This document shows positions 27,903 to 45,005 of a stretch of DNA of 64,000 nucleotides, piece by piece (the first letter of the stretch is position 1; each line of letters begins with the position of its first letter). The stretch is from Proteiniborus sp. MB09-C3 (lineage in GTDB: Bacteria > Bacillota > Clostridia > Tissierellales > Proteiniboraceae). The stretch covers positions 1,922,001 to 1,986,000 of the forward strand of contig NZ_CP127161.1 of the NCBI RefSeq assembly GCF_030263895.1, written 5' to 3'. Made by a program: the position numbers and the translations under genes. Below the pieces are notes generated by a model. The model was not told where the DNA came from. It worked only from the letters and a program-made list of their open reading frames with translations, and ran no database searches.

Positions 27903-27913
27903 AGGTGATATAA

Positions 27914-29098: not shown

Positions 29099-29131
29099 CA
29101 AAAAAATCTGGACTGATGTCCAGATTTTTTT
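29080..29131 (+). repeat. Direct repeat, left copy: grdD 3' end plus terminator
   Basis: 52 bp covering the last codons of grdD and its terminator (AAATCTGGAC-tgat-GTCCAGATTT with flanking A and T runs). The right copy is at 41803-41854 with three mismatches. The two copies bracket the 12.7-kb accessory segment. Confidence 0.85.
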
Positions 29132-29182
29132 GCTATTCACAGTTAAATAAAATATGAGACACTCAAAATGATCAGTTTCTAT

Positions 29183-29210
29183 GTCATCCTGAACGTAGTG
29201 AAAGATCTCT
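29183..29210 (+). repeat. Dispersed GTCATYCTGA...GAAGRATCT repeat
   Basis: GTCATCCTGAACGTAGTG-AAAGATCTC. This is one of at least eight related copies in the window, here between grdD and the first cassette promoter. Confidence 0.7.
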
Positions 29211-29323
29211 TTTTTTTATGATATTTTTGTTTATAAAAAATATAGATTTCAGACAATAATATCATTCTACTTTTTTCGAAGAAATAATAATTATTAAGAT
29301 TTTTTAACATACAACGGCAACGG

Positions 29324-29353
29324 TTGACAGATTTTGGTTATTCATGCTATGTT
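29324..29353 (+). promoter_or_regulatory. Cassette 1 promoter
   Basis: TTGACA, 18-bp spacer, TATGTT. The surrounding ~200 bp are homologous to those at 31511 and 33994, so the promoter was duplicated with the cassette. The 534-bp gap 29136-29669 otherwise holds the dispersed repeat and no precursor peptide gene. Confidence 0.7.
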
Positions 29354-29669
29354 AGCTATAAAATTATAAGGTAAGACAATTTATAATTTTACGTATTATA
29401 TTTTAATGATTTTTTAGGCACTTATTTTATGTCTAGATATGCTCCAAATGGTTTCAAAAACAAAAATTCTTGTTTAAAAGAAAAGAATGTTGAAGAGATC
29501 ACTGAAAAAAATCTTTTTGCAGGATAAAGGAGTTTTCTCTTTTGAAGCGGTATAAAGAAACTATATGTGGTAAAGTTACCAAAGATTAATGCGAATAAGA
29601 GCCTGGAAAGTTAATACAAATAAAGTATCTTAAGAATAGTAGTATAAAAATTTATGTGGGGTGATTTTC

Positions 29670-31316
29670 ATGAAGCGTATAAGTATTATTTTAATACTAA
29701 CAGTTTTCTTATCAGGCTGTAGTAGCACACAAAGCGTAAGCTATGATTTTAACAATAATTACGAGGGCATAGTACAAAAAGATGGATATATGACAAATTT
29801 TGAATATGCATCAACTGATAGATGTACCTACTATTTTGAAGATAATGCTTATAGCGATGAACAAAAAAATGAATTTATCAATGACTTTGAAAAAATATTT
29901 GATTATGTAACTAAAGATATGAAAGCAACAATAGACCTACCGATAAATATATATGTGGCTAATAAATTGTTTGTACAAGGCAAGGACAAATCTATATTTT
30001 TAAATGATATAAATGCAAAAAATATTAACTCAATAAATGCATTTTTTCAAGGCATTGTAGGTTCAACTCCAAACTATGGCTTAGGATACGGGCTAAGCTT
30101 ATATGTATACGAAAAAGTATTTAAAGATACATATAAACCAGAGAATGAAATAGCCATGGTATCGGAATATCTTTCAGATGAAAAAAACCTAGATATTTTG
30201 GATCTAGAAGTACCTGTATTTGAAGAAGTATATTTTACAAAAGAAGACAATACATATGCACATGATATAGCTTATTATTTAACAAAAGATATAATTAAGC
30301 AAAAAGGAGTAGAGTATGCCTTTGAATTATTTAATAAATCAAAGGATTTAGATATTACATTTGAAAAAGAGTATGAAGTTTTAGCAAACGATTGGTTAAA
30401 AAGGATAGGTGCACAGGTAAGTTATAAAGCCACTAATGTTCCGCTGAGATATGAAAAGAATGTTGGAAGAAATATAAAGATATACCCATACATAATACAA
30501 AGCCCATCTACAGAATCATATATTGAGCTTGGTTTTACGTTAACTAATGATGTTGATATTTTTTCAATGGACTATGGATATATCAAGTATTTTTTCGAAT
30601 TATTTGAGAAGGATGTTAAAAGCTTGAAAGAAACTGATATATTTTCAAAGTATTTAGAAACTCCTGAGGAGAAACCAATTTGTCAGTTTAGGGAGAAGAT
30701 TAGTAATATTAAGCTTGGGGGAGGTATAGTTCATAATTATAATGAACAAATCACTATAGAATATAGAGATCCACTATATGCAGGTGTTCACGAATATGCC
30801 CATTATCTTGCAATCAAATCTAATAAGCCACGTGCGGGTTGGCTAGAGGAAGGCTTTGCTGTATACTGCGAACATTATTTAGCCGATAGGGGTGTATATA
30901 GGCTGATGTATGAATCATGGGGAGATTTTAATAATGCATACAATAATTTTCTAGATAGTGCAAAACCATGTAAACAATTTTATGAAAAGTTAGTAAATGA
31001 TAAGCCACCATTTAAGAGAAACGAAATTAATTTGTATGCATTGTGTGAAGCACTGGCTTTTCATGCAACTATAGATAAAAGAGTATATACTACTCTTGGG
31101 GAATATCGAATGGGTATGGTTGGTGATATTCCAGAAGGATTAGATTTAACCTACCATGAGTCTGGTAGCCTTGTAAATTATCTGATAGAAACATATGGAG
31201 AAGAAAAGCTCTGTGAGCTGTTAAAAAACTATGATAGGCTATATGGAATATATGGTAAAACCTTTAAAGAATTGTGTGATGAATGGTATCTTGCACTTAA
31301 GGCTAAGTTTGAATAG
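29670..31316 (+). CDS. Lipoprotein with HExxH metallopeptidase motif, paralog 1
   Basis: A 548-residue protein with a signal peptide ending in the lipobox LSGC, hence anchored outside the membrane. The C-terminal part has GVHEYAHYL (H374, E375, H378) followed by WLEEGFAVYCE (E394), a gluzincin/peptidase-MA-like zinc site. The N-terminal ~270 residues are mixed helix and very similar to paralogs at 32179 and 34649. The segment just before the zinc site is the most variable. It could process or degrade an exported peptide, or give immunity; this is inference. The ATG at 29670 has GTGGGG upstream. No precursor gene remains in this cassette. Confidence 0.8.
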   Translation: MKRISIILILTVFLSGCSSTQSVSYDFNNNYEGIVQKDGYMTNFEYASTDRCTYYFEDNAYSDEQKNEFINDFEKIFDYVTKDMKATIDLPINIYVANKLFVQGKDKSIFLNDINAKNINSINAFFQGIVGSTPNYGLGYGLSLYVYEKVFKDTYKPENEIAMVSEYLSDEKNLDILDLEVPVFEEVYFTKEDNTYAHDIAYYLTKDIIKQKGVEYAFELFNKSKDLDITFEKEYEVLANDWLKRIGAQVSYKATNVPLRYEKNVGRNIKIYPYIIQSPSTESYIELGFTLTNDVDIFSMDYGYIKYFFELFEKDVKSLKETDIFSKYLETPEEKPICQFREKISNIKLGGGIVHNYNEQITIEYRDPLYAGVHEYAHYLAIKSNKPRAGWLEEGFAVYCEHYLADRGVYRLMYESWGDFNNAYNNFLDSAKPCKQFYEKLVNDKPPFKRNEINLYALCEALAFHATIDKRVYTTLGEYRMGMVGDIPEGLDLTYHESGSLVNYLIETYGEEKLCELLKNYDRLYGIYGKTFKELCDEWYLALKAKFE

Positions 31317-31358
31317 AAAGAGGTACTTATTATATTAATGACCAGTTTCTGTGTCATT

Positions 31359-31387
31359 GTCATCCTGAACGCAGTGAAGGATCTTTC
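31359..31387 (+). repeat. Dispersed GTCATYCTGA...GAAGRATCT repeat
   Basis: GTCATCCTGAACGCAGTGAAGGATC just behind the first lipoprotein gene; homologous in position to the copy at 29183. Confidence 0.7.
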
Positions 31388-31510
31388 CTTTAGCTGTGCA
31401 TTGCAACGATTTTTTTGCTTATAGAAAAATATAGATTTCAGACAATAATATCATTCTTTTTTTCGAAGAAATAATAATTATTAAGATTTTTTAACATGAA
31501 ATGTAAGGGT

Positions 31511-31540
31511 TTGACATATTTCGGCTATGTATGCTATATT
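31511..31540 (+). promoter_or_regulatory. Cassette 2 promoter
   Basis: TTGACA, 18-bp spacer, TATATT, with flanks homologous to the promoters of cassettes 1 and 3. The leader to the peptide gene is about 390 nt long. The 620-bp gap 31317-31937 holds this promoter, two dispersed repeats and no further gene that I can support. Confidence 0.75.
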
Positions 31541-31706
31541 AGCTATAAAGTTACAAAGTAAGACAATTTACAATTTTGCATATTGTATTTTTAATGATTT
31601 TTCAGGCTCTTATTTTGCGACTAATTATGCTCCAAATAGTTTTAAAGACAAGAAATTTTGTTTAAAAGAAAAAATGTTGCAGAGGTAACCAAAAAAGTTT
31701 TTTCCT

Positions 31707-31736
31707 GTCATCCTGAGCGTTAGCAAAGGATCTCTC
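31707..31736 (+). repeat. Dispersed GTCATYCTGA...GAAGRATCT repeat
   Basis: GTCATCCTGAGCGTTAGC-AAAGGATCTC between promoter and peptide gene of cassette 2; the equivalent copy in cassette 3 is at 34192. Confidence 0.7.
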
Positions 31737-31937
31737 TACTAATATTTTTCATAATTTTCAGATATATATACGTAGCAATGATAAACATAAAGCAAACGTT
31801 TTCAGACGACTTGATGTAGCAATGCAAGATATTTCAGATGTAAAGGTTTTAAAAACAGATAAACAGAGTATTCTTTAAATAAGATTTTGTTTATCAGTAA
31901 CGAGTTAAACAAATATTAAATGAGGAGGTGAAATTGA

Positions 31938-32087
31938 ATGGAAACTTTAACTGATCTAATATGGAACGAAGAAGAACTAGATAACAAGGTTTTAGGTGAG
32001 CCGAGCGAACCAGTTTTAGCACTTGATTGCCCAATTTGGGGCGTACCAGGCGGACCAATATGTAGTAAACCTGGTTTCAATTCTTAA
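31938..32087 (+). CDS. Putative RiPP precursor peptide 1
   Basis: A 49-residue peptide with a very strong site (GAGGAGGTG, 8 bases before ATG). The leader METLTDLIWNEEELDNKVL is acidic and is followed by GEPSEPVLALD. The C-terminal part, from C31, is CPIWGVPGGPICSKPGFNS with two cysteines ten residues apart and many Gly/Pro. The first 34 residues differ from precursor 2 (34374) at a single position, whereas the tails diverge. A conserved leader with a variable Cys-bearing core, together with two radical SAM/SPASM enzymes and an exporter downstream, supports a ribosomally made, modified peptide. The type of modification is unknown; Cys thioether links are plausible. Confidence 0.8.
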   Translation: METLTDLIWNEEELDNKVLGEPSEPVLALDCPIWGVPGGPICSKPGFNS

Positions 32088-32178
32088 TACAGAATAAGTA
32101 AATAAGAGCCTGAAAAATCAATATAAATAGAATCGGAATTAAGAAATAGTAGTATAAAACTTTTGTGGGGTGATTTTT

Positions 32179-33804
32179 ATGAAGCATATAAGTATTATTC
32201 TAATATTAGCAGTTTTATTAGTAGGCTGTAGCAGCACACAAAATGTAAGCTATGATTTTAACAATGGTTACGAAGGCATAGTGCAAAAAAATGGGTACAT
32301 GACGAGCTTTGTATATGCTTCCACTGATAGATGTACTTACTATTTTGAAGATAATGCTTATAGTGATGAGCAAAAAAATGCATTAATCAATAACTTTGAA
32401 AAAGTTTTTGATTATGCAATCAAAGATATGAAAGTATCAATGGACCAGCCAATAAACGTATATGTGGCTAATAAATTGTTTGTACAGGGCAAGGATAAGT
32501 CTGTATTTTTAGATGATATAAATGCAAAAAATGTTAACTCAATAAATGCACTCTTACAAGGTATTGTAGGTTCAACTCCAAACTATGGATTAGGATATGG
32601 GCTAAGTTTACATGTGTATGAAAAAGTATTAGAAGATACATATAAACCAGAGTATGAAATAGCTAAGGTATCAGAATATCTCTCAGATGAAAAAAAACTA
32701 GATATATTAGATTTAGCACTGCCTGTCTTTGAAGAAGTATATTTTACAAAAACAGACAATACTTATGCACATGATATAGCTTATTTTTTAACAAAAGATA
32801 TAATTAATCAAAAAGGAATTGAGTATACCTTTGATTTGTTTAATAAATCAAAGGATTTAGATATTGCATTTGAAAAAGAGTATGAAGTTTTAGCAAACGA
32901 TTGGTTAAAGAGAATCGGCATACAGGATAATTATAGAGTAATTGATGTCCCACTAAGATATGAAAAGATTATTGGTAAAAACACAAGGATATACCCATAT
33001 ATACTACATTCGCCATCTACAGAATCATATATTGAGTTTGATTTTAAGGCACCTAAGTTTGGCGCTGATGATATTTTAATAGACTATAGCTATACCAAGC
33101 ATTTTTTTGAATTATTTGAGAATGACATTAAAAGCTTGAAAGAAACTGATATATTTTCAAAGTATTTAGAGACTCCTGAGAAGAAGGTAATTTGTAATTT
33201 TATAAAAAGAGCTAATCCTAAATACGGTGGTAGGTATTATTATCAATCAAATACTATAGAGTTAGAAGATCCATTTGGAGCAGGTGTTCATGAATATACA
33301 CATTATCTTTTAGGAAGACATGCAGAAAATCCAGCTTGGTTGGAAGAAGGAATTGCTACATATTGTCAATATTATTTAGTTGATAAGGGTGTATATAGGC
33401 TGATGCATGAAGTATATGATGATTTCAATAATGATTATGAACTTGCAGATACTAGGATAAGGCTATTTTATGAAAGATTAGTAAATGACAAGCCACCATT
33501 CGAAAAAAACGAAATTAATTTATATGCATGGTTTGAAGCAGTGGCTTGGAAAGATACTTTACACAAAACAAAAGATCGTACTTTTGAAGGGTATCGAACA
33601 GGTGTTAATTTCGATATTAAAGAAGGATTAGATTTAACCTATTCTGAGGCTGGTAGTCTTGTAAACTATCTGATAGAAACATATGGGGAAGAGAAACTCT
33701 GTGAACTATATAACAATTATAATAAGCTATATGAGCTGTATGGTAAAACCTTTAAAGAATTGCGTGATGAATGGTATCTTGCACTTAAGGCTAAGTTTGA
33801 ATAG
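32179..33804 (+). CDS. Lipoprotein with HExxH metallopeptidase motif, paralog 2
   Basis: A 541-residue protein, the most divergent of the three paralogs. Its signal peptide ends at LVGC, with the same SSTQNVSYDF start to the mature protein. The zinc site is GVHEYTHYL with WLEEGIATYCQ downstream. It follows precursor 1 by 91 bp and shares its promoter. The ATG at 32179 has TGTGGGG upstream. Both metal-binding motif halves are retained, so selection on activity is likely. Whether it cuts the matured peptide, confers resistance or acts on another target cannot be told from sequence. Confidence 0.8.
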   Translation: MKHISIILILAVLLVGCSSTQNVSYDFNNGYEGIVQKNGYMTSFVYASTDRCTYYFEDNAYSDEQKNALINNFEKVFDYAIKDMKVSMDQPINVYVANKLFVQGKDKSVFLDDINAKNVNSINALLQGIVGSTPNYGLGYGLSLHVYEKVLEDTYKPEYEIAKVSEYLSDEKKLDILDLALPVFEEVYFTKTDNTYAHDIAYFLTKDIINQKGIEYTFDLFNKSKDLDIAFEKEYEVLANDWLKRIGIQDNYRVIDVPLRYEKIIGKNTRIYPYILHSPSTESYIEFDFKAPKFGADDILIDYSYTKHFFELFENDIKSLKETDIFSKYLETPEKKVICNFIKRANPKYGGRYYYQSNTIELEDPFGAGVHEYTHYLLGRHAENPAWLEEGIATYCQYYLVDKGVYRLMHEVYDDFNNDYELADTRIRLFYERLVNDKPPFEKNEINLYAWFEAVAWKDTLHKTKDRTFEGYRTGVNFDIKEGLDLTYSEAGSLVNYLIETYGEEKLCELYNNYNKLYELYGKTFKELRDEWYLALKAKFE

Positions 33805-33841
33805 AAAGAGGTACTTAATTAGATTAATGACCAGTTTCTGG

Positions 33842-33870
33842 ATCATTCTGAAAGTAGTGAAGGCTTTCTC
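33842..33870 (+). repeat. Degenerate dispersed repeat
   Basis: ATCATTCTGAAAGTAGTGAAGGCTT, a decayed copy in the position equivalent to 31359. Confidence 0.5.
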
Positions 33871-33993
33871 CTTTAGCTGTGCATTGTAACTATTTTTTAC
33901 TTATAGAAAAGTATAGATTTCAGACAATAATACCATTCTGCGTTTCTGAGGGAATAATAGCTATTAAGGTTTTTTAACATGTAGTGTAAATGT

Positions 33994-34023
33994 TTGACAT
34001 ATTTCGGGCATACATGCTATATT
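33994..34023 (+). promoter_or_regulatory. Cassette 3 promoter
   Basis: TTGACA, 18-bp spacer, TATATT. It is the likely start of the transcript for precursor 2, lipoprotein 3 and the whole maturation/export operon. The 570-bp gap 33805-34373 holds this promoter and two dispersed repeats only. Confidence 0.75.
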
Positions 34024-34191
34024 AGATATAAACTTACAAAGTAAGACAATTTACAATTTTATATATTATATTTTTAATGATTTTTCAGGCTCTTATTTTG
34101 CGACTAAGTATGCTCCAAATAGTTTTAAAGACAAGTAATTTTGTTTAAAAGAAAAAAGACGTTGCAGAGATAACCAAAAAAGTACTTTTCT

Positions 34192-34221
34192 GTCATACTG
34201 AGCGTTAGCGAAGGATCTCTC
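34192..34221 (+). repeat. Dispersed GTCATYCTGA...GAAGRATCT repeat
   Basis: GTCATACTGAGCGTTAGCGA-AGGATCTC, equivalent to the copy at 31707. Confidence 0.7.
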
Positions 34222-34373
34222 CACTGATAGTTTCCATAATTTTCAGACATATATATACATAACAATGATAAATAATAAATCAAACTTTTTCAGATGTAAA
34301 GGTTTTCAACAGAGTACTCTTTTTGTTTATCAGTAACGAGTTAAATAAATATCAAATGAGGAGGTGAAATTGA

Positions 34374-34526
34374 ATGGAAACTTTAACTGATCTAATATGG
34401 AACGAAGAAGAACTAGACAACAAGGTTTTAGGTGAGCCGAGAGAACCAGTTTTAGCACTTGATTGCCCAATTTGGAGTGGTGGATGTCCTGTTTTTACTG
34501 ATCCAAAATGTAGTAATAAAAAATAA
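34374..34526 (+). CDS. Putative RiPP precursor peptide 2
   Basis: A 50-residue peptide with GAGGAGGTG before the ATG. The leader is the same as in precursor 1 up to CPIW (one change, Ser23 to Arg). The tail then reads SGGCPVFTDPKCSNKK, so three cysteines (31, 38, 46) instead of two. At DNA level the leader-coding parts differ at only two or three bases, so the tails have diverged much faster than the leaders. It lies first in the transcript that continues through lipoprotein 3 into the maturation genes. Confidence 0.82.
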   Translation: METLTDLIWNEEELDNKVLGEPREPVLALDCPIWSGGCPVFTDPKCSNKK

Positions 34527-34648
34527 TGCAAGTGATATGATTAAAATGTAAAAATAATGCAGAATAAACTGATAAGAGCCTGAAAAATCAATATAAATAG
34601 AATCGGAATTAAGAAATACTAGTATAAAACTTTTGTGGGGTGACTTTT

Positions 34649-36289
34649 ATGAAGCGTATAAGTATTATTTTAATACTAACAGTTTTCTTATCAGGCTGTA
34701 GTAGCACACAAAGCGTAAGCTATGATTTTAACAATAGTTACGAGGGCATAGTACAAAAAGACGGATACATGACAAACTTTGAATATGCATCAACTGATAG
34801 ATGTACCTACCATTTTGAAGATAATGCTTATAGCGATGAACAAAAAAATGAATTTATCAATGACTTTGAAAAAATATTTGATTATGTAACTAAAGATATG
34901 AAAGCAACAATAGACCTACCGATAAATATATATGTGGCTAATAAATTGTTTGTACAAGGCAAGGACAAGTCTGTATTTTTAAATGATATAAACGCAAAAA
35001 ATATTCATTCAATAAATGTACTCTTACAAGGCATTGTAGGTTCAACTCCAAACTATGGCTTAGGATATGGGCTAAGCTTATATGTATACGAAAAAGTATT
35101 TAAAGATACATATAAACCAGAGAATGAAATAGCAAAGGTATCAGAATATCTTTCAGATGAAAAAAATCTAGATATCTTGGATCTAGAAGTACCTGTATTT
35201 GAAGAAGTATATTTTACAAAAGAAGACAATACATATGCATATGACATAGCCTACTATTTAATAAAAGATACAATCAAACAGAAGGGAGTGGAATATGCAT
35301 TTGAACTATATAGCAAATCAAAGGATTTAGATATTGAATTTGAAAAAGAATATGAGATTGTTGCGAATGATTGGTTAAAAAGGATAGGAGCACAGGTAAG
35401 TTATAAAGCCTCTGATGTCCCGTTGAGATATGAAAAGAATATTGGAAGAAACACAAGGATATACCCATATATACTACATTCACCATCTACAGAATCATAT
35501 ATTGAATTTGATTTTAAGTTAACGGACTCTTATTTTTATAGGCTAAATAATGATGAAATTTTAATGGACTATAGATATATCAAATATTTTTTTGAATTAT
35601 TTGAAAAGGATATTAAAAGCTTGAAAGAAACTGAAATATTTACAAGATATTTAGAAATTCCTGAGGAGAAGGTAATTTGTCATTTTCTATGGAGACCTAA
35701 TGATGACTTTAGGGGGAGATTTTATGAGATGATAAATACAATAGAATATATAGACCCGATACCATCAGGCATTCACGAATACGTTCATTATCTTTCGAGC
35801 AAACATAACCCACTTGCAGTTTGGTTAGGAGAAGGCTTTGCTGTATATTGCCAATATTATCTAGCTGATAGGGGTGTATATAGGCTGATGTATGAAGCAT
35901 GGGGAGATTTTAATAATGCATATAATAATGATTTTGCAGATAGTACGAAACCATTTTATGAAAAACTAGTAAATGATAAGCCACCATTTAAGAAAAACGA
36001 AATTAATTTATATGCATGGCGCGAAGCAAGGGCTTGGGAAGATACTTTGGACAAAACAAAAGAAATTACTTTTCAGGGTATATCAAAAGGCGGTTTCGAT
36101 ATTAAAGATGGAGATGATTTAACCTATCCTCAGGCTGGTAGCCTTGTAAATTATCTTATAGAGACATACGGGGAAGAGAAACTCTGCGAACTATATAAAA
36201 ACTATAATAGGCTATATGAACTCTACGGCAAAACCTTTAAAGAATTACATGATGAATGGTATCTTGCACTTAAGGCTAAGTTTGAATAG
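34649..36289 (+). CDS. Lipoprotein with HExxH metallopeptidase motif, paralog 3
   Basis: A 546-residue protein. The first ~250 residues are almost the same as in paralog 1, with the same LSGC lipobox, while the region around the zinc site (GIHEYVHYL, then WLGEGFAVYCQ) is as divergent as in paralog 2. This mosaic suggests recent duplication with gene conversion. The first glutamate of WLEEG is Gly here, but the second, the likely metal ligand, is kept. The stop is 41 bp before the first radical SAM gene, with no terminator between, so the two are probably co-transcribed. Confidence 0.8.
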   Translation: MKRISIILILTVFLSGCSSTQSVSYDFNNSYEGIVQKDGYMTNFEYASTDRCTYHFEDNAYSDEQKNEFINDFEKIFDYVTKDMKATIDLPINIYVANKLFVQGKDKSVFLNDINAKNIHSINVLLQGIVGSTPNYGLGYGLSLYVYEKVFKDTYKPENEIAKVSEYLSDEKNLDILDLEVPVFEEVYFTKEDNTYAYDIAYYLIKDTIKQKGVEYAFELYSKSKDLDIEFEKEYEIVANDWLKRIGAQVSYKASDVPLRYEKNIGRNTRIYPYILHSPSTESYIEFDFKLTDSYFYRLNNDEILMDYRYIKYFFELFEKDIKSLKETEIFTRYLEIPEEKVICHFLWRPNDDFRGRFYEMINTIEYIDPIPSGIHEYVHYLSSKHNPLAVWLGEGFAVYCQYYLADRGVYRLMYEAWGDFNNAYNNDFADSTKPFYEKLVNDKPPFKKNEINLYAWREARAWEDTLDKTKEITFQGISKGGFDIKDGDDLTYPQAGSLVNYLIETYGEEKLCELYKNYNRLYELYGKTFKELHDEWYLALKAKFE

Positions 36290-36330
36290 AAAGAGGTACT
36301 CATTATATTAAAGAAAGACAGGTGAAATCA

Positions 36331-37689
36331 ATGGTTCTATTTAACAATGTTATTGTAAAAATGAAGAATGCTTATATGATGATGAATCTGATATCCTTCC
36401 GAAGAAAAATAATATTGGAACAGCAATTTAGTATACTAAAATCACTGAATAAAAAAATAGAAAAAAATTATAGTGGTTTAACTGAGACAGAACAAGACTT
36501 CTATAGAGAATTACTTAAAGAAAAGCAGATATTAGATGACAAATCCATAGAATTATTTGAGGAGCAAATTGCTATTTTAAATAAGGAAAGAAAATTGGAG
36601 TTAAATATCTCTGATAAAATTCAGATAAATTTAGCTGATGGATGCAATTTTAACTGTACTTATTGCTACCAAAAAAAGTATTCTGCTAAAAATAGAGTAC
36701 TTAGTCTCGAAGACATAAAAAATATTAAATATGTATGTGATGAGTATATATCAAAAAATGGTTATTCAAATAATATTAAAGAGGTTACTGTAAGTGGCGG
36801 TGAATCACTCATGGACAGCCATTTGCCTTTGATTTGGGAAATTAGCAATGTATTTGATAATTCGAAACTAATGATATTGACAAATGGTGTAAATATCAGC
36901 AGACTGTGGGATAAATTGCCTTATAAAAAAATTAAGAGTATGCAAGTTTCTTTAGATGGAAAAGATGACGTTATTTCAAAGCTGTCTTTTGGAAATAAGA
37001 GCGTTAAATTGTTTGATAGCATAGTAGAAGGTATAGAAAAGGCCTTAGAATACGAGATAGATGTAACTATAAATTCGATTATAACAAAAGACACATATAA
37101 TAAAAAAGAAGAACTTTTAACTGCCTTAGATAAAAGAAATATTTTATCTAAAGTAAAGCTGAACTTATCCCCAGTTTATGATCATGGAAGTCAAACTGGA
37201 CTAGATGATAGCTTTTATTCTAAGGATGAGTTTATTGAAATATATAATGAATTAAAAAAACTAGTTGCAAAATATGAAAACGTTTCTTTTTCATCAGGCC
37301 TTGCAAATATAAATAGCCTAGCGAACTTAATAAATCGTCCTAATAATACAAAAGTATCAGAATATAGGTTTAATCAGTGTGATGTTGAAAATGGCTTAAA
37401 ATTAGTTTTTGCTCCCGATGGGAAAATATATTGGTGCAATAAAGTAGTTGATGATCTTGGAGTGGTAGGTAAATTTAAAGAGGATTATTATATTGACAAG
37501 GAACTAGTAGCTGCTTATGTAAACAGAAGTTGGCATGAAATTCCAGAATGTAAAAAATGCGAATTTAAATATGTATGCATTGGTGGATGTGTTTTATACA
37601 ACATTACAAATAATAATGACTTAATGAGCCCAGCATGTGGTTGTTTTAAGGATGAATATGTTTTAGATAACTTGGACAAGCTGTTATAA
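36331..37689 (+). CDS. Radical SAM/SPASM peptide maturase 1
   Basis: A 452-residue protein. An N-terminal ~100 residues, helical and possibly peptide-binding, precede the radical SAM core with the cluster motif NLADGCNFNCTYCYQKK (C-x3-C-x2-C). VSGGESLMDSHLPLI and MQVSLDGKDDVI are the next core strands. The C-terminal SPASM region has CNKVVDDLG and PECKKCEFKYVCIGGC, then CGCFKDE, so it can hold auxiliary Fe-S clusters. Such enzymes install thioether, C-C or other links on Cys-containing precursor peptides. The ATG at 36331 is five bases behind AGGTGA. The likely substrates are the two precursors just upstream. Confidence 0.88.
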   Translation: MVLFNNVIVKMKNAYMMMNLISFRRKIILEQQFSILKSLNKKIEKNYSGLTETEQDFYRELLKEKQILDDKSIELFEEQIAILNKERKLELNISDKIQINLADGCNFNCTYCYQKKYSAKNRVLSLEDIKNIKYVCDEYISKNGYSNNIKEVTVSGGESLMDSHLPLIWEISNVFDNSKLMILTNGVNISRLWDKLPYKKIKSMQVSLDGKDDVISKLSFGNKSVKLFDSIVEGIEKALEYEIDVTINSIITKDTYNKKEELLTALDKRNILSKVKLNLSPVYDHGSQTGLDDSFYSKDEFIEIYNELKKLVAKYENVSFSSGLANINSLANLINRPNNTKVSEYRFNQCDVENGLKLVFAPDGKIYWCNKVVDDLGVVGKFKEDYYIDKELVAAYVNRSWHEIPECKKCEFKYVCIGGCVLYNITNNNDLMSPACGCFKDEYVLDNLDKLL

Positions 37690-37732
37690 GATAAGTAAAT
37701 ATGAAATGTACGGAGGTTAATGTGATTTTGCT

Positions 37733-38665
37733 ATGAAAAAAAACATATTAATTATGGCAGATTTAGAAGGCATAATAGGTGTAACTAACCTTTATGACAA
37801 AACAGATTGCCAAGAAAAGATGTGCAAGGAAGTAAGTGTTTTACTTGATTGTTTAATAGAAAGAAATGAATTTAATATTTATTTTTGTGATGCTCATGAT
37901 AATGGTAAGACCACAATGCCATTGTGGGAGCAGTATTCTAATGTAAATTTTATTTCATGCTTTTGGAATATAGATCTTGATATAAAATATGATTATGCAA
38001 TATTAACAGGCTTTCATGCTAAAAATGGTACAGGCCTTATGGCACATTCCTTTAGGCCTGAGATTGACAAAGTGCATATAGGAGATGTTGAAGTAGGAGA
38101 AATAGGAATATTTATTAATTATCTGTCATTTTATAGTATACCAACCATTTTTCTTAGTGCAGAAGAAGAGGCAATTACAGAATTAAATGATATTGGATGC
38201 AAATGTGCAGTAAACATATCAAATTACAGTAAAAATGATAAAGAGATAAGCTTAGAAACTAAATACAGACAATACGCTGACAATTTAAACTATGCAATTG
38301 ATAATAAAGAAAAATATTGCAATAGTTATATTGATGAAAAAATATACATTGAATTTATTCATGAGGACTATTTAAACTATCTAGTTTCCTCTAGTAAATT
38401 TAAAATGGAAAACGGAGTTATTAAATTTGAAAACACAATAGATTTTATTGCAAAAGCCTATGGTATGGCAATGTCTCTTAACGAAGTATATCATATTAAA
38501 TATAATGAGCTTCTAAGAACAATGAGAGCTAACTTTAACAAATTTGATCCTAGTACGATAAAAGATGAAAATTTGAAAAAACTTTTGAATACAGGTATCA
38601 GGTCTTATAATTATGATGATTTAAAATACATAAATGATTTATTGTTTAAAGAATTTAACAAGTGA
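37733..38665 (+). CDS. M55-family D-aminopeptidase (DppA-like)
   Basis: A 310-residue zinc peptidase of the DppA family. Metal-binding signatures are ADLEGIIGV (D and E near residues 9 and 11), FCDAHDNGKT, LTGFHAKNG and GEVGEIGIF-like GDVEVGEIGIF. DppA releases N-terminal D-amino acids from peptides. It lies 43 bp after one radical SAM gene and 9 bp before the exporter, so it clearly belongs to the operon. A natural guess is trimming of a leader or of a peptide containing D-residues. The best Shine-Dalgarno (CGGAGG) is far from the ATG and serves a four-codon frame ending in ATGA at the start codon, which hints at coupling. Confidence 0.85.
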   Translation: MKKNILIMADLEGIIGVTNLYDKTDCQEKMCKEVSVLLDCLIERNEFNIYFCDAHDNGKTTMPLWEQYSNVNFISCFWNIDLDIKYDYAILTGFHAKNGTGLMAHSFRPEIDKVHIGDVEVGEIGIFINYLSFYSIPTIFLSAEEEAITELNDIGCKCAVNISNYSKNDKEISLETKYRQYADNLNYAIDNKEKYCNSYIDEKIYIEFIHEDYLNYLVSSSKFKMENGVIKFENTIDFIAKAYGMAMSLNEVYHIKYNELLRTMRANFNKFDPSTIKDENLKKLLNTGIRSYNYDDLKYINDLLFKEFNK

Positions 38666-38674
38666 GAGTGCAAG

Positions 38675-40348
38675 ATGAAAAGAATATATTATATTTTCAG
38701 AAAAAGCTTTGATTTTTATGAAAATTATAAGATGAAATTTCTGCTTTCAAATATCCTCATTTTATTTATCCTTTTAATAGTTACAATAGAGCCATATATC
38801 TTAGCACAGTTAATAACAGCTCTATATAGCTTTAACCAAAATAAGTTTTACACTTTTTTAGGAATTATTATTTTATTAAATCTAAGTAAGTACATAATAA
38901 ACTATACAAAAGAGAGATTAGATATATTAATCAAGAAAAAAGTAGCCATAAGCATTAAATATAAACTAATGCAAAATATCCTTGAAAGTCATCCTAATAC
39001 TCTATGTGATTTTACCGAGGGGAAATTATTGACCATAATGTATAATGATTCACTAGTAGTACGTGACTTTGTTTATATTATAAGTGCATATTTTAAAGAT
39101 TTTATTACCATAGCAATCATTGGAATAATAATGTTAAGGATTAATATTTTTCTGTCTTTCATTGTAATTCTACTATTCCCGTTAATCGCTTATGTAAACA
39201 AGCAATTTGGGAATAAGATCAATCAAGAAAGCAGAGAAATATTGAAAAAAACAGATTCTATAATGGAAATGATTAAAAAAAATATAATGTCAATAAATGA
39301 TATAAAATATAGCAATTCTATGAAAAAAATATTAGCTTTTTTTCAGGATAAAATAAATGAGTTAAATAAAAAAACAATTCATTGTGAGAAAACAAAATTG
39401 AATAATTTGTATTTATCAAACATTTTGGGTCTATGCGGTAATATAATATTTTTATTAGTTGGAGGAAGTTTAATTTTTAATAAAACAGTTGAAGTAGGCA
39501 ATTTTATTGCTTTTTTAACATATTCAAAATATTTTTCTACATCTTTATTTTCAATAACCACAATGTATGGAAATCTACAGCAGCAAATAGTTTCAGCAGA
39601 GAGAATTATAGATTTATACAGCAGAACCAAGTGTGATATAGATAATAGAGAAGATATGATGGTGACTAATGATGATATGTGCATAAATATAAATGATGTT
39701 TCATTAGCCTTTGGGGAAAAGGTAATATTGAAAAACATTGATTTGGAGATTGAAAAGAATCAAAAAGTGTGCATATTAGGGAAAAATGGTTCAGGCAAAA
39801 CTAGCTTATTAAACCTGCTGTCTGGTATATACCAAATATCCTCTGGAAGTATCACAATAAATGATACAGATATAAAGCATATAGAATTTAAAGACCTAGT
39901 AAAAAACATCACATATGCTAGACAAATACCATATGTTTATAACAATAGTTCTATAAGAGAAAATATATTGCTATCAGATGAAGGCAAAAATATAAGTGAA
40001 GATAGACTAAGAGAAATATGCGAGGATTTTCATATAATTGATGACATAATGAATATGCCAGATGGATTTGATACTGTAATAACTGAAAATTATAAACTAT
40101 CCTCTGGTCAAATGAAAAAAATTCAGCTAATAAGATGCTTTTTGCGTAATACGCCTATTTTATTATTAGATGAGCCTCTATCAAATGTTGACCGAGAATT
40201 TATAAAAAGTTTTCCTAAAATAATAGATAAGTATTGTGAAAACAAAATTGTTATTATTTCAACTCATAATTTAAACTGCTATGATAAGTTTGATAAAATC
40301 GTAAATCTCAGCCATTTTAATAGATATGATAAACTTGTAGGATACTAG
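38675..40348 (+). CDS. ABC transporter, fused membrane and ATPase domains
   Basis: A 557-residue half-transporter with six membrane segments in the first ~320 residues. A nucleotide-binding domain follows, with Walker A LGKNGSGKTSLL, signature LSSGQMKKIQL and Walker B ILLLDEPLSNVD, plus the switch histidine in ISTHNLN. It works as a dimer. No N-terminal C39 peptidase domain is present, so leader removal, if any, must be done by another protein such as the M55 enzyme or the lipoprotein peptidases. It probably exports the modified peptide. It starts 9 bp after the M55 gene. Confidence 0.9.
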   Translation: MKRIYYIFRKSFDFYENYKMKFLLSNILILFILLIVTIEPYILAQLITALYSFNQNKFYTFLGIIILLNLSKYIINYTKERLDILIKKKVAISIKYKLMQNILESHPNTLCDFTEGKLLTIMYNDSLVVRDFVYIISAYFKDFITIAIIGIIMLRINIFLSFIVILLFPLIAYVNKQFGNKINQESREILKKTDSIMEMIKKNIMSINDIKYSNSMKKILAFFQDKINELNKKTIHCEKTKLNNLYLSNILGLCGNIIFLLVGGSLIFNKTVEVGNFIAFLTYSKYFSTSLFSITTMYGNLQQQIVSAERIIDLYSRTKCDIDNREDMMVTNDDMCININDVSLAFGEKVILKNIDLEIEKNQKVCILGKNGSGKTSLLNLLSGIYQISSGSITINDTDIKHIEFKDLVKNITYARQIPYVYNNSSIRENILLSDEGKNISEDRLREICEDFHIIDDIMNMPDGFDTVITENYKLSSGQMKKIQLIRCFLRNTPILLLDEPLSNVDREFIKSFPKIIDKYCENKIVIISTHNLNCYDKFDKIVNLSHFNRYDKLVGY

Positions 40349-40399
40349 AAGTAGGATATAAATGATGCGGTAGATATTTAACGAAAGGGAAGTGTTGTT

Positions 40400-41728
40400 A
40401 TGAAATTAATTTATCACATGTCAATGACGGAACTTGATGCTACAACAAAAAAATGGTTGCTAATCAATGCATTATTTGGTTCTGTGGACATAATTGAAGA
40501 TAAATATAGCAGAATAATTGATAAATGGTTAGAAAATGATGATATTATCCCAGTAACAGAAGATGAAAATCGTATATATAACTTTTTATTGGAGAGGAAA
40601 TATTTAATTTCATCATCTGAGGAAGAAAACAATATAAAGGGCAATATTCTAAATAAACTAAGGCTTAACTATAATCATAGGCTAGAAAACATTAGCAATA
40701 TAGTTCTTGTTTTTAATTATGATTGTAATTTTTCATGCCCTTATTGCTATGAAAATAATAGAGATAATGCAAATAATAAATATTCAATGACCGAAGAAAT
40801 GGTAGATAAGATATATTTATTGCACTCAAATATTACAGGCATTACTTTATTTGGGGGAGAACCCCTTTTATTAGAAAATATGAGTATTATCAAATATATC
40901 ATACAAAAATCTCCTAATGCTAGATATAATGTATTTACAAATGGCTATTTTTTAGAGGAATACATACCTTTACTAAAGAAATTAGATATAGGATTTATTC
41001 AGGTTACTATAGATGGTGAAGAAGAGGTGCATAACAGAACTAGGATATTAAAAAATGGAGAAGCTACTTATAAAAAAATAATGGAAGGAATCAAAGCTTG
41101 CTTAGTAAATAACATTCCTATTAAGATAAGAATGAATATATCAGAAATGAATTTAAACAGCTGTAATATTTTCAAAAAAAATTTCTTAGATGAATTTAGC
41201 GATTATAAGCAGAATATTTCATTTGAAATGCAACCACTCTACCAATTAAATGGTAAAGCTAAAATGAAGCTTGATGATGAATTATATTGGAATAGTTCTA
41301 TTATAGGCAAATATGACGAAGGCTTTACAACGGATAATGTAATATTGAATACAGCATCTCCAATTGTCAAATTATTTTTGTTAAATAACACAAAAATTTA
41401 TCCACAGTACAGCAGGTGTGCAGTTGAACAAATGAGCAGATTCTATGATTCAATGGGAGATATGTATTCTTGCTTTCTATCGGTAGGTAATGAAAGTGAT
41501 TCCATTGGAACTTATTATCCTAATTATGCATTAAAAGAGAACTCTTTAATCGATCGCAACATTGAATCAATAGAAAAGTGTTCGAAATGTAGAATTGCAT
41601 TAATATGTGGTAGTGGTTGTGGAAATGCTGCAAAATCTTCTAACAAAATGATTCCCAATTGTGAGCAAGTTTTAGATGATATATATGTCAAAATTCCGAA
41701 GCTGTATAGAATTAAACAGAAGAATTAA
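40400..41728 (+). CDS. Radical SAM/SPASM peptide maturase 2
   Basis: A 442-residue protein with the cluster motif FNYDCNFSCPYCYENN (C-x3-C-x2-C), GITLFGGEPLLLENM and QVTIDGEEEVHNRTR in the core. A SPASM tail follows (KCSKCRIALICGSGCGNAA, then NCEQV). It is clearly different from maturase 1 and not a recent duplicate. The N-terminal ~95 residues are acidic and may bind the leader. It is the last gene of the island, 51 bp after the exporter, with RBS AAAGGGAAG. It may act on the second precursor, or in series with maturase 1. Confidence 0.87.
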   Translation: MKLIYHMSMTELDATTKKWLLINALFGSVDIIEDKYSRIIDKWLENDDIIPVTEDENRIYNFLLERKYLISSSEEENNIKGNILNKLRLNYNHRLENISNIVLVFNYDCNFSCPYCYENNRDNANNKYSMTEEMVDKIYLLHSNITGITLFGGEPLLLENMSIIKYIIQKSPNARYNVFTNGYFLEEYIPLLKKLDIGFIQVTIDGEEEVHNRTRILKNGEATYKKIMEGIKACLVNNIPIKIRMNISEMNLNSCNIFKKNFLDEFSDYKQNISFEMQPLYQLNGKAKMKLDDELYWNSSIIGKYDEGFTTDNVILNTASPIVKLFLLNNTKIYPQYSRCAVEQMSRFYDSMGDMYSCFLSVGNESDSIGTYYPNYALKENSLIDRNIESIEKCSKCRIALICGSGCGNAAKSSNKMIPNCEQVLDDIYVKIPKLYRIKQKN

Positions 41729-41802
41729 TATAAGAGAATATTATTTTAGGAGACAAAATACATCCAGCCTTTAAAATAAAAGACCTTTGAGATGTACTCC
41801 GA

Positions 41803-41854
41803 AGAATCTACTCCTTGTTAGCAAAAAAATCTGGACTAATGTCCAGATTTTTTT
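41803..41854 (+). repeat. Direct repeat, right copy: grdD tail and terminator
   Basis: Matches 29080-29131 in 49 of 52 positions. In the grdD frame it would still read E-S-T-P-C-stop, followed by the same AAATCTGGAC-taat-GTCCAGATTT terminator. It has no grdD upstream of it and lies 75 bp behind the last island gene. Confidence 0.85.
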
Positions 41855-41896
41855 CTTACTTATAGAAAGACCAGATTTTTTTATATAACATTAAAT

Positions 41897-41925
41897 TTGG
41901 CGAAAAAATTATTATCTGTTATAAT
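41897..41925 (+). promoter_or_regulatory. Promoter for rpoN
   Basis: TTGGCG, 17-bp spacer, TATAAT; the start codon of rpoN lies 87 bp downstream. Confidence 0.65.
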
Positions 41926-42011
41926 AGTAATAAAGGACTAATTAACTAGCATAATATATTAAATTACTTTGCATTTATAGATAAAATATTTAGGTGTTAG
42001 GAGTGAGCCAT

Positions 42012-43391
42012 ATGCGTCTGGGATTTGATCTGACATTAGAACAAGCACAAAAATTAATAATGACACCAGAACTAAGACAAGCTATTCAAATGCTTCAATT
42101 TACAAGCCAAGAGCTATGGCAATATGTAGAAAGCCAGATGGAAGCTAACCCACTGTTAGAGTTGGAAAACAAACGAGAAGTTGAAGAACACATTGAAGAG
42201 TATGATAATAAGCTTGAGGATGTGGACTGGAAGGAATATTCAGAGCAGTATGATGATATAAGCTATAGGAGTACTGTTAATAGAGATGAAAAGGAGAATA
42301 CATTTGAAAACTATGTATCGGCGAGAACATCTCTAAAAGATCATTTGCTTTTTCAATTAAATCTATCTATTTTTGATAAAAGACAAAAAGCTATCGGGGA
42401 ATTTATTATTGAATGTATAGATAAAAATGGGTATTTGAATAATCCAGTGACAGAGATATCTAAGCAATTGAATGTTGAGGAAAATTTAGTTGAAAACGTT
42501 ATCAAGTTAATTCAAACTTTTGAACCAGCTGGTGTATGTGCAAGAGATTTGAAGGAATGCCTATTGATACAGCTTGAACTTAAGGGGATAAATAATCCTG
42601 ATATTCGAGAAATAATTAACAATTATCTAGTGGACGTAGCTCAGAATAGATTAGCAAAGATATCAAAGGAATTAAATATTAGCTTGAAAAGTGTTCAATG
42701 GATATGTGACTTAATTAAGTCATTGGAGCCTAAGCCTGGAAGAGGATTTGCTCATGATAGTGACGAGATAAAATATATCACTCCAGATGTATACTTATAT
42801 TATATTGACGGGGAATATGTAATAAGTGTAAATGATTCATCTACCCCAAGACTGATTATTAACAACTATTATAAACAGTTATTAAATAAGTCAAACGATG
42901 ACGGCACTACAAACTTTCTTACAGAAAGGCTGAACTCTGCTATGTGGCTAATTAGAAGTATAGAGCAGAGAAGAATGACAATCTATAAGGTTGTTGAATC
43001 TATATTAAAGTATCAAATAGATTTTTTTGAAAAGGGCAAAAAGTCTTTAAAGCCTCTTACTTTGAAAGATGTAGCAGAGGATATCGGTGTCCATGAGTCT
43101 ACAGTTAGCAGAGCAACTAACGGAAAGTATATTCAGACACCTAGAGGATTATTTGAACTAAAGTATTTCTTTTCAAGTGGTATATCTAGTAACGATGGCG
43201 GAATATCTTCCACAAGTATTAAATCAATTATTAAGGAAATAATTGAGGGAGAAAATCCTAAAAAACCACTTAGTGATCAACAAATAGTTAAAATTCTTAA
43301 AGCAAAGGATATAGATATATCTAGAAGAACAGTTGCAAAATATCGTGATGAATTAGGCATTGCCTCATCATCAGGAAGAAGAAGATACTAG
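42012..43391 (+). CDS. rpoN: RNA polymerase sigma-54 factor
   Basis: A 459-residue protein. The N-terminal region I is rich in Gln/Leu (QAQKLIMTPELRQAIQMLQFT). A core-binding region follows with GYLNNPVTEI and EPAGVCARDLKECL, then the helix-turn-helix (DVAEDIGVHESTVSRATNGKY), which reads the -12 element. The C-terminal RpoN box SRRTVAKYRDELGI reads the -24 element. The ATG at 42012 is eight bases after AGGAG; the longer frame from TTG 41994 lacks a site. Target genes activated by enhancer-binding proteins lie outside the window. Confidence 0.95.
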   Translation: MRLGFDLTLEQAQKLIMTPELRQAIQMLQFTSQELWQYVESQMEANPLLELENKREVEEHIEEYDNKLEDVDWKEYSEQYDDISYRSTVNRDEKENTFENYVSARTSLKDHLLFQLNLSIFDKRQKAIGEFIIECIDKNGYLNNPVTEISKQLNVEENLVENVIKLIQTFEPAGVCARDLKECLLIQLELKGINNPDIREIINNYLVDVAQNRLAKISKELNISLKSVQWICDLIKSLEPKPGRGFAHDSDEIKYITPDVYLYYIDGEYVISVNDSSTPRLIINNYYKQLLNKSNDDGTTNFLTERLNSAMWLIRSIEQRRMTIYKVVESILKYQIDFFEKGKKSLKPLTLKDVAEDIGVHESTVSRATNGKYIQTPRGLFELKYFFSSGISSNDGGISSTSIKSIIKEIIEGENPKKPLSDQQIVKILKAKDIDISRRTVAKYRDELGIASSSGRRRY

Positions 43392-43418
43392 AGAACGGAG
43401 TCATCCACCTAACCCTAT

Positions 43419-43690
43419 TTTCCGAATGCTTTTGTCGGAAAGTAAAGGAAACTCAGAAAACAAGTTTCTGAGTACTGCAATTACACCAACTTTGATTTTG
43501 CTTCTAGAATTAGGAGTGTCCGTCAGGACCAAGTCATAGATTTGGGTAATTGCAGCATAGGTTAAACGCAATGAGTACCAACCTTATTGTAGGCTTATGA
43601 CAGGGGTGTCTGTTAGGACCAAATTTATGAAGGGTAGCAAGCAAATAAATTTGTGTTGCGAGACTGCGGAAATCTATAAATATGTTTTTT
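43419..43690 (+). other. Structured intergenic region, copies B and B' (possible ncRNA)
   Basis: Three nested stems are visible. TTTCCGA pairs with TCGGAAA (43419-43441). ACTCAGAAA pairs with TTTCTGAGT (43451-43473). CTGCAATTAC pairs perfectly with GTAATTGCAG (43475-43484 / 43546-43555), enclosing a GTCC-gtca-GGAC hairpin. A second module at 43556-43675 repeats the GTCT-gtta-GGAC hairpin and matches copy A at 26.2 kb, ending in TTGCGAGACTGC. No open frame is present. It could be a leader of cggR or a free small RNA. Confidence 0.55.
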
Positions 43691-43712
43691 TATTAATAGC
43701 AGCGTAAAGGTA

Positions 43713-43740
43713 TTGAATTTTAAATTTATTATAGTATAAT
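43713..43740 (+). promoter_or_regulatory. Candidate promoter of the glycolytic operon
   Basis: TTGAAT, 16-bp spacer, TATAAT. The putative operators lie downstream of it. A second candidate, TTGACT-17-TTTATT, is at 43885-43913. Confidence 0.5.
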
Positions 43741-43770
43741 AATGGTGAAGATGTTTTTTTATTAGATTAC

Positions 43771-43800
43771 TGGGACAATATTTATATATCTGGGACAATA
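43771..43800 (+). promoter_or_regulatory. GGGACAATA direct repeats, 20-bp period
   Basis: TGGGACAATA occurs at 43771-43780 and again at 43791-43800, exactly two helical turns apart, suiting a dimeric repressor binding one face. The GGGAC core is like the half-site known for CggR. Confidence 0.45.
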
Positions 43801-43915
43801 TGAGACCAGCAATGCATGCTGTAATAATAAAAAGTAGCTATAAAGCATAATGATAAAATATATAAGAAATACTATATATTATATTTGACTTATAAGTGGG
43901 TAATTATTTTATTGA

Positions 43916-43952
43916 CGGGTCATTTCCCGACATCTTGGACTTATTATGTCCA
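43916..43952 (+). promoter_or_regulatory. Candidate CggR operator
   Basis: CGGGTCATTTCCCGACATCT followed by TGGACTTATTATGTCCA, located just before the cggR RBS. It resembles the two-half-site operator (CGGGAC-N6-GTC repeated) that CggR binds in Bacillus subtilis, as I remember it. Confidence 0.6.
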
Positions 43953-43967
43953 CAAGGAGTGTGTTTT

Positions 43968-45005
43968 ATGAAAGACCTAATAGAACTTCAGAGAAAGATC
44001 GCGCCAGAAATAATTGATATTTTAGAGAAACGATATTCAATACTTAGAAATATTTACTATAATCAACCAATAGGAAGACGGGCCTTAGCAAACAATTTAG
44101 GGCTAGGAGAAAGAGTTATAAGGACAGAGGTAAGTGTTTTAAAAGAACAAGGACTCTTGGATATTGAAACTAATGGCATGAATGTCACAGAAGAAGGAAA
44201 ATTAGTAATCGATGAATTAAAAGATTATATTCATGGGTTAAAGGGTCTCAACAGCTTAGAAAAGAAGATTAAAGATATGCTAAGTATAAATAGGGTATAT
44301 ATTGTACCAGGAGATTCAAGAGAAGATATGCTTACCCCTAAAGACATAGGAAAAACGGCATCTATTCTTATAAAACAGGTTACTAAGGATGGAGACATCA
44401 TAGGAATTACAGGTGGTACAACTATGGCTCAGGTGGCAGAAGAAATGACTGTAGAAAAAGTTAAGAAGGATATTACAGTTATTCCTGCTAGGGGTGGATT
44501 AGGAAAGGATCTTGAAACACAGTCAAATAATATTGCTGCAAAATTAGCGAAAAAGCTAGGGGGAAGCTATAGACTCCTTCAAGTCCCAGATAATGTAGGC
44601 GTAGAAGCTCTAAAAGCTTTGATGACTGTTCATGAAGTAAAAGAAGTATTAGATATTATTAAGAACATGGATATATTAGTTTTTGGTATTGGTAGAGCAG
44701 ATGTAATGGCTGAAAGAAGAGAATTACAACAGGATAAGATTAATGAGATAGAAAAGAATGGGGCAGTAGCAGAAGCATTTGGGCACTACTTTAATACTAA
44801 TGGAGATATAGTTTTAGAAACAAGTACAATTGGATTATCATTAGAAGATTTTAAAAAAATTGACACAGTAATAGGAGTAGCAGGCGGAAAAGATAAAGCA
44901 GAAGCTATCGTTGCAATATGTAAATTACATAGAAATATGATACTTATAATAGACGAAGCTGCTGCAAGAAAGATACTGTCAATGTCTAAAAATGCTACTA
45001 TATAG
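43968..45005 (+). CDS. cggR: Central glycolytic genes regulator CggR
   Basis: A 345-residue SorC-family repressor. The N-terminal helix-turn-helix ([34 protein letters not shown]) precedes the sugar-phosphate-binding domain ([50 protein letters not shown]). In Bacilli it represses gapA-pgk-tpi-pgm-eno, relieved by fructose-1,6-bisphosphate, and here it sits in exactly that position. The ATG at 43968 follows CAAGGAG; the longer frame from 43896 would read through the operator. It is likely autoregulated through the site at 43916-43952. Confidence 0.9.

Follow-up and report, generated by a model that had tools for sequence, protein, structure and literature searches.

We found that a 12.8-kb island in the genome of Proteiniborus sp. 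MB09-C3 is likely a cassette for the biosynthesis and export of a RiPP. The island lies within the window, by which we mean the whole 64,000-nucleotide stretch of DNA analysed, and encodes two short precursor peptides, two radical SAM/SPASM enzymes (rSAM1 and rSAM2), an M55 peptidase, an ABC exporter and three HEYxH lipoproteins. In the reading that we consider probable, the two SPASM enzymes would cross-link cysteines of the precursors, the ABC protein would export the product, a lipoprotein would cut it outside the cell, and the M55 protein would act as a dedicated peptidase. What we observe is this gene content, catalytic residues that are conserved, protease sites that are hypervariable, and a gene set conserved as a cassette across genera; the RiPP-type locus proposed in the initial annotation is supported.

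Layout and origin of the island

The island is bounded by grdD (ending at 29098), which we take from its sequence to be a glycine-reductase-type gene, and by the gene for a sigma-54 factor (41994), and its genes are all on the + strand (Table 1). It is built of three tandem units of ~2.4 kb each, every one with a promoter-like TTGACA-18-TATRTT box and an HEYxH lipoprotein gene. Units 1 and 2 contain a precursor gene; an alignment of the three units reveals that unit 0 has none, though the upstream region is retained. The genes for rSAM1, the M55 peptidase, the ABC exporter and rSAM2 follow 3' of unit 2 in that order, separated by 9-51 bp, and the operon ends in a terminator. Every gene listed in the initial annotation was found in place, as were the single strand and the short intergenic gaps from 34374 onward (113, 33, 43, 9 and 51 bp); the list had overlooked the third lipoprotein gene, that of unit 0, and the terminator.

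Table 1. Features of the island, in window coordinates
Feature	Position	Strand	Remarks
Promoter-like site, unit 0 (TTGACA-18-TATGTT)	29324..29353	+	Consensus match only; aligned with the other two units
lipo0, third HEYxH lipoprotein, orphan, without precursor	29661..31316	+	Likely start ATG 29670
Promoter-like site, unit 1 (TTGACA-18-TATATT, 11/12)	31511..31540	+	Consensus match only
Precursor peptide A	31938..32087	+	Leader METLTDLIWNEEELDNKVLGEPSEPVLALD, core CPIWGVPGGPICSKPGFNS; boundary inferred from homologues (invariant Cys)
lipo1, HEYxH lipoprotein paired with precursor A	32170..33804	+	Likely start ATG 32179
Promoter-like site, unit 2 (TTGACA-18-TATATT, 11/12)	33994..34023	+	Consensus match only
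Precursor peptide B	34374..34526	+	Leader near-identical to that of A, core CPIWSGGCPVFTDPKCSNKK
lipo2, HEYxH lipoprotein paired with precursor B	34640..36289	+	Likely start ATG 34649
rSAM1, radical SAM/SPASM enzyme 1	36331..37689	+	Start predicted from its Shine-Dalgarno sequence and from homologues; the mechanical ORF begins at 36322
M55 (DppA-like) peptidase	37733..38665	+	No signal peptide seen
Fused ABC exporter	38675..40348	+	No C39 peptidase domain
rSAM2, radical SAM/SPASM enzyme 2	40400..41728	+	CX3CX2C motif and seven SPASM Cys
Intrinsic terminator closing the operon	41823..41854	+	Nearly repeats the grdD terminator (29098-29131)

A conserved stretch of ~350-400 bases separates the promoter-like site from the precursor start (31541-31937 and 34024-34373) and is partly retained in unit 0. 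It has no Rfam match, and no Rfam RNA family was found in positions 27000-44500 of the window. Upstream of the precursors, at 34178-34222, there is also an interspersed repeat of the TCATNCTGAGCGTTAGCGAAGGATCT type, which occurs at more than 20 places across the chromosome.

The island was probably acquired by horizontal transfer, as a replacement or an insertion, because homology to congeners is broken across it, a terminator is repeated at its ends and its G+C content is lower (0.288 versus 0.335). In two congeneric genomes a four-gene ABC transporter occupies its place between grdD and the sigma-54 gene; homology of these genomes to the window ends at ~29100 and resumes at 41882. The terminator of grdD (29098-29131) recurs at the opposite end of the island (about 41823-41860). 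The congeners' transporter appears, from its sequence, to be of the BMP type, and the best match to its binding protein in the window's genome is just 40% identical.

Precursor peptides and maturases

The initial annotation had described two short peptides with strong ribosome-binding sites, and both are indeed preceded by a AGGAGGTGA Shine-Dalgarno sequence. Their genes have 31 leader codons in common, with 2 of 93 bases differing, through the first core Cys. The leader is of the LxxLIWNEE type and the core starts with Cys; the two cores, both Cys-containing, diverge after CPIW. Peptides with the same leader signature, such as MKSLNELIWNNE, MKSLNDIIWNED, MEPIIDLIWSVE and MENLNDLIWTDE, adjoin related enzymes in other genomes, and because this gene context is shared by several of them, we regard precursors A and B as real genes. 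In the aligned set, neither the leader Ile-Trp nor the first core Cys varies, and every core has at least one further Cys. As judged from sequence, this leader/core pattern is that of RiPPs, far beyond chance, and the locus has the general make-up of a RiPP cluster: a short precursor gene with a conserved leader and a variable core, adjoined by maturase genes. No NCBIfam or Pfam model, precursor models included, matches the peptides, which therefore fall in no non-RiPP family of those collections; further, inspection of the two window cores found no CX3D/E motif.

Both rSAM1 and rSAM2 have a CX3CX2C motif and a complete seven-Cys SPASM set (C353, 372, 410, 413, 419, 423 and 439 of rSAM1, numbered from the ORF start at 36322; C340, 358, 394, 397, 403, 407 and 421 of rSAM2), and they are thus radical SAM/SPASM maturases of the kind first annotated. 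The nearest solved structure by sequence is for both 5wgg (2e-19 and 6e-24, respectively), an entry titled “Structural Insights into Thioether Bond Formation in the Biosynthesis of Sactipeptides”. From residue 7 on, the predicted model of rSAM1 (mean pLDDT 69) aligns with 5why/5wgg (Z ~15, rmsd 7.6-7.7 over 340-345 residues). Its N-terminus consists of strands followed by three helices, and this modelled domain would fit a leader-binding RRE. Against NCBIfam, rSAM2 scores best with the PapB model (106 bits, cut-off 340) and the Clo7bot model (98.8 bits, cut-off 600), and the best scores of rSAM1 are 66-68 bits; both enzymes thus fall far below the cut-off of every named NCBIfam maturase model. 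The best-scoring models are cross-linking maturases (for rSAM1 also MoaA) rather than epimerases. A sactipeptide/ranthipeptide-like chemistry, as proposed initially, may apply; the bond that defines a sactipeptide is a thioether from Cys sulfur to an alpha-carbon. In a plasmid collection, rSAM1 had only distant MoaA-like or partial matches.

Peptidases and exporter

The M55 peptidase scores 62.3 bits with Pfam PF04951 (cut-off 25) and retains all six catalytic/metal residues of DppA (D10, E12, H55, H95, H105 and E123), so that the earlier description as DppA-like is sound; it does not reach the cut-off of the DppA equivalog NF058634 (40.9 versus 430). The ABC protein is a TMD-NBD fusion, also as annotated, and has no C39 domain. 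A review of RiPP leader proteases names M1, M16, M61, M103 and M50 metalloproteases, and M55 is not among them (PMC10885120). If the role in RiPP biosynthesis holds, M55, a peptidase family absent from that review (PMC10885120), gains one.

The lipoproteins have a lipobox, the annotated HExxH motif in the form HEYxH, and a downstream Glu, as in the Gluzincin/Peptidase MA motif; in lipo2 the zinc-site residues are H379, E380, H383 and E398. Their putative catalytic activity is deduced from the HEYxH motif and the Glu. They score 27-30 bits with Pfam Peptidase_MA_2 (PF13485), just under the curated cut-off of 32.4. The predicted model of lipo2 is of low confidence (mean pLDDT 61) and had no Foldseek match at E 0.001; its best matches are M30 lugdulysin and M1 enzymes, at E 2.5e-3 or weaker. 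When residues 1-260 of lipo2 were compared with residues 261-549, hhalign returned an E-value of 2.9e-4 and a probability of 41%, a suggestion of internal duplication, with the N-terminal half perhaps copied from the peptidase half and no longer catalytic.

In four genomes, the N-terminal half of the lipoprotein changes little between paralogues, whereas the region around the zinc site is hypervariable. The window's lipoproteins are 54-63% identical in the catalytic region versus 81-93% in the N-terminal half, and those of the related genome G082 are 41-46% versus 92-93%. By 50-residue blocks, the one with HEYxH is 45% identical in the window (dN 0.50), against 82-89% (dN 0.05-0.09) for the blocks in residues 1-250; in G082 the corresponding figures are 44% and 89-97%. 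The trend is the same, but weaker, in the Tissierella-type genomes G244 and G245. Because dS also rises in some divergent blocks, with dN never above dS, the pattern can reflect gene conversion of the N-terminal half, diversifying selection, or both. A conserved half joined to a hypervariable zinc site, echoing the conserved leader and variable core of the precursors, is new here. Co-diversification of the catalytic site with the core is suggested by these sequences, and only suggested, because one pair supports it and another contradicts it. Across species, between G245 and G244, the lipoproteins L031b and L032c share 98% identity in their catalytic regions and 79% in their N-terminal halves, beside near-identical cores (CGINxNCGCGSYNPxTLCN); within one genome, L031a and L031c have near-identical CGGLTRSC cores, yet their catalytic regions are just 62% identical.

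Relatives of the cassette

An rSAM1 search of 249 genomes of the order found five further Tissierellales genomes that carry the cassette (G082, G090, G057, G244 and G245). A search of named genomes recovered it in Tissierella sp. P1, Anaerosalibacter massiliensis, a Tissierellales MAG, a Lachnospiraceae MAG (UBA7050) and a Defluviitaleaceae MAG, as well as in a MAG labelled Tenericutes (L058) and a second Lachnospiraceae MAG (L070); the two sets overlap, the first three of these being G244, G057 and G090, respectively. The cassette is rare, because a precursor peptide profile run over 391 genomes of the class matched the window's own genome only. Precursor, rSAM1, rSAM2, ABC protein and, usually, M55 co-occur in several genera; no M55 gene was seen at L058 and L070. 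In most cassettes, a precursor has near it a gene for a membrane-bound or secreted peptidase: an MA-type lipoprotein in the window, L028, L031, L032, L055 and L058, an M50 peptidase in L030, a papain-type (C1) protein in L070 and S41 proteins in L062. The idea that the peptidase set marks a new subclass thus stands in part, in that M55 is present in most relatives, though not all, and other peptidase types replace the lipoprotein in some.

Three further arrangements deserve record. In G082 (L028:7979-15296), rSAM1 is duplicated, and each copy lies directly 3' of its own precursor gene. In Tissierella sp. P1 (L032:7460-9097), the lipoprotein adjoining the precursor CGGVLSPGCKIDYSYRPATGCTK is in two frames, from decay or sequencing error. 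A one-enzyme relative, in Alkaliphilus transvaalensis and Tissierella sp. P1 (L065:9496-11350 and L069:9584-11350), has an rSAM2-like protein and mini-precursors of ~38 residues, MKMKPIIEA(G/S)WN...CCAC, whose leader is similar to the cassette's EPIIDLIW form.

Proposed function

We infer the bond type, the order of the steps, the part of each peptidase and the activity of the product as follows. The leader would be bound by the RRE-like domains of the radical SAM enzymes, and rSAM1 and rSAM2, probably jointly, would cross-link Cys in the cytoplasm, most likely as thioethers (-2 Da each); thuricin CD is a precedent for such joint action of two SPASM enzymes (PMC12093266). The ABC protein, having no protease domain, would export the modified peptide, which the membrane-anchored, gluzincin-type zinc lipoprotein would then cut outside; leader removal or final trimming is our best guess, and disposal of the product outside the cell an alternative. 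The catalytic sites of the lipoproteins would diversify along with the cores. The cytoplasmic M55 would be a dedicated peptidase that perhaps trims N-terminal or D-configured residues, or clears failed product. A stronger form of this scheme, somewhat unlikely in our estimate, pairs each precursor with a surface zinc protease of its own; the catalytic site of this protease would diversify while the rest is homogenised, duplication would yield new pairs, and M55 would act intracellularly on D-configured or alpha-cross-linked residues.

It is possible, although we tend to doubt it, that the lipoproteins instead confer immunity, each binding or degrading its own toxic exported peptide at the producer's surface and diversifying with the core, with another protease removing the leader. 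Precursor and lipoprotein gene numbers are near 1:1 (2:3 in the window, 3:3 in L028, 3:3 in L031 and 2:2 in L055), the catalytic region is hypervariable, and lipo0 has been retained after precursor loss, as immunity genes would be; on the other hand, the swap of the lipoprotein for M50, C1 or S41 peptidases in relatives is a better fit to processing, and an exporter without a protease domain requires a processing enzyme somewhere. DppA, the founder of the M55 family, acts as a D-aminopeptidase and shares the catalytic residues of the window's M55 protein, and M55 is within the operon in most relatives. One radical SAM enzyme might therefore be a peptide epimerase making D-residues, with M55 as its partner for trimming or self-protection. 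This is unlikely, given the full SPASM sets of both enzymes and their top scores with cross-linking maturases (or MoaA, for rSAM1), the low equivalog score of the M55 protein and the two relatives in which M55 was not seen. Most improbable of all is that the cassette belongs, in diverged form, to a catalogued radical SAM peptide system of the Clo7bot, CefB, TIGR04463 or PapB type: rSAM2 and its relatives do find their best NCBIfam matches in these families (~87-134 bits), but every score falls far short of the curated cut-offs (340-600 bits), the precursor models have no match, and a true Clo7bot locus is built differently.

As a probable cassette for RiPP biosynthesis and export, the locus adds an uncatalogued radical SAM RiPP family, found in several anaerobic Clostridia lineages and in one MAG labelled Tenericutes, with a product that is a candidate new kind of modified bacterial peptide. 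Its fast-diverging protease sites form a natural data set for studying the adaptation of processing or immunity proteins to new peptide products; the short set of precursors and two enzymes makes it experimentally approachable.

Comparison with known systems

To our knowledge, the thuricin CD system has no M55 peptidase and no HEYxH lipoproteins. By gene content it is like the window in having two precursors (TrnA/B) and two SPASM radical SAM enzymes (TrnC/D), which form one working complex with radical chemistry strictly required of only one (PMC12093266). The SCIFF maturase CteB (5wgg, 5why) and its system resemble the window in a putative N-terminal RRE-like domain, the seven-Cys SPASM, a Cys-containing precursor and occurrence in Clostridia, but there is a single maturase, and the six-Cys SCIFF core is absent from the window; TIGR03974 scores of ~53-54 bits, against a cut-off of 425, argue against membership. 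Clo7bot systems (TIGR04333/TIGR04334) likewise have short Cys peptides adjoining a related SPASM enzyme. A true Clo7bot locus, however, has one enzyme, ten tandem small peptides, other leaders, no M55 and no lipoprotein peptidase, and the window has no TIGR04333 precursor match and reaches only 98.8 of 600 bits with TIGR04334. The PapB ranthipeptide maturase (NF047865) is the top-scoring family for rSAM2, but the scores of 106 (rSAM2) and 66 bits miss the cut-off of 340, the cores have no CX3D/E motif, and the window has a second SPASM enzyme. The M55 protein belongs to the same sequence family as the D-aminopeptidase DppA (PDB 1hi9) and has its six active-site residues, but misses the equivalog cut-off and is encoded inside a RiPP operon. 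Searches of open-access papers found nothing on M55 with radical SAM enzymes, or on Clo7bot. The initial annotation called the locus unfamiliar, and neither NCBIfam nor the open-access papers searched contain a described system with the window's gene set. By the catalogues and open-access literature searched, this is a new RiPP family, though one built of known parts.
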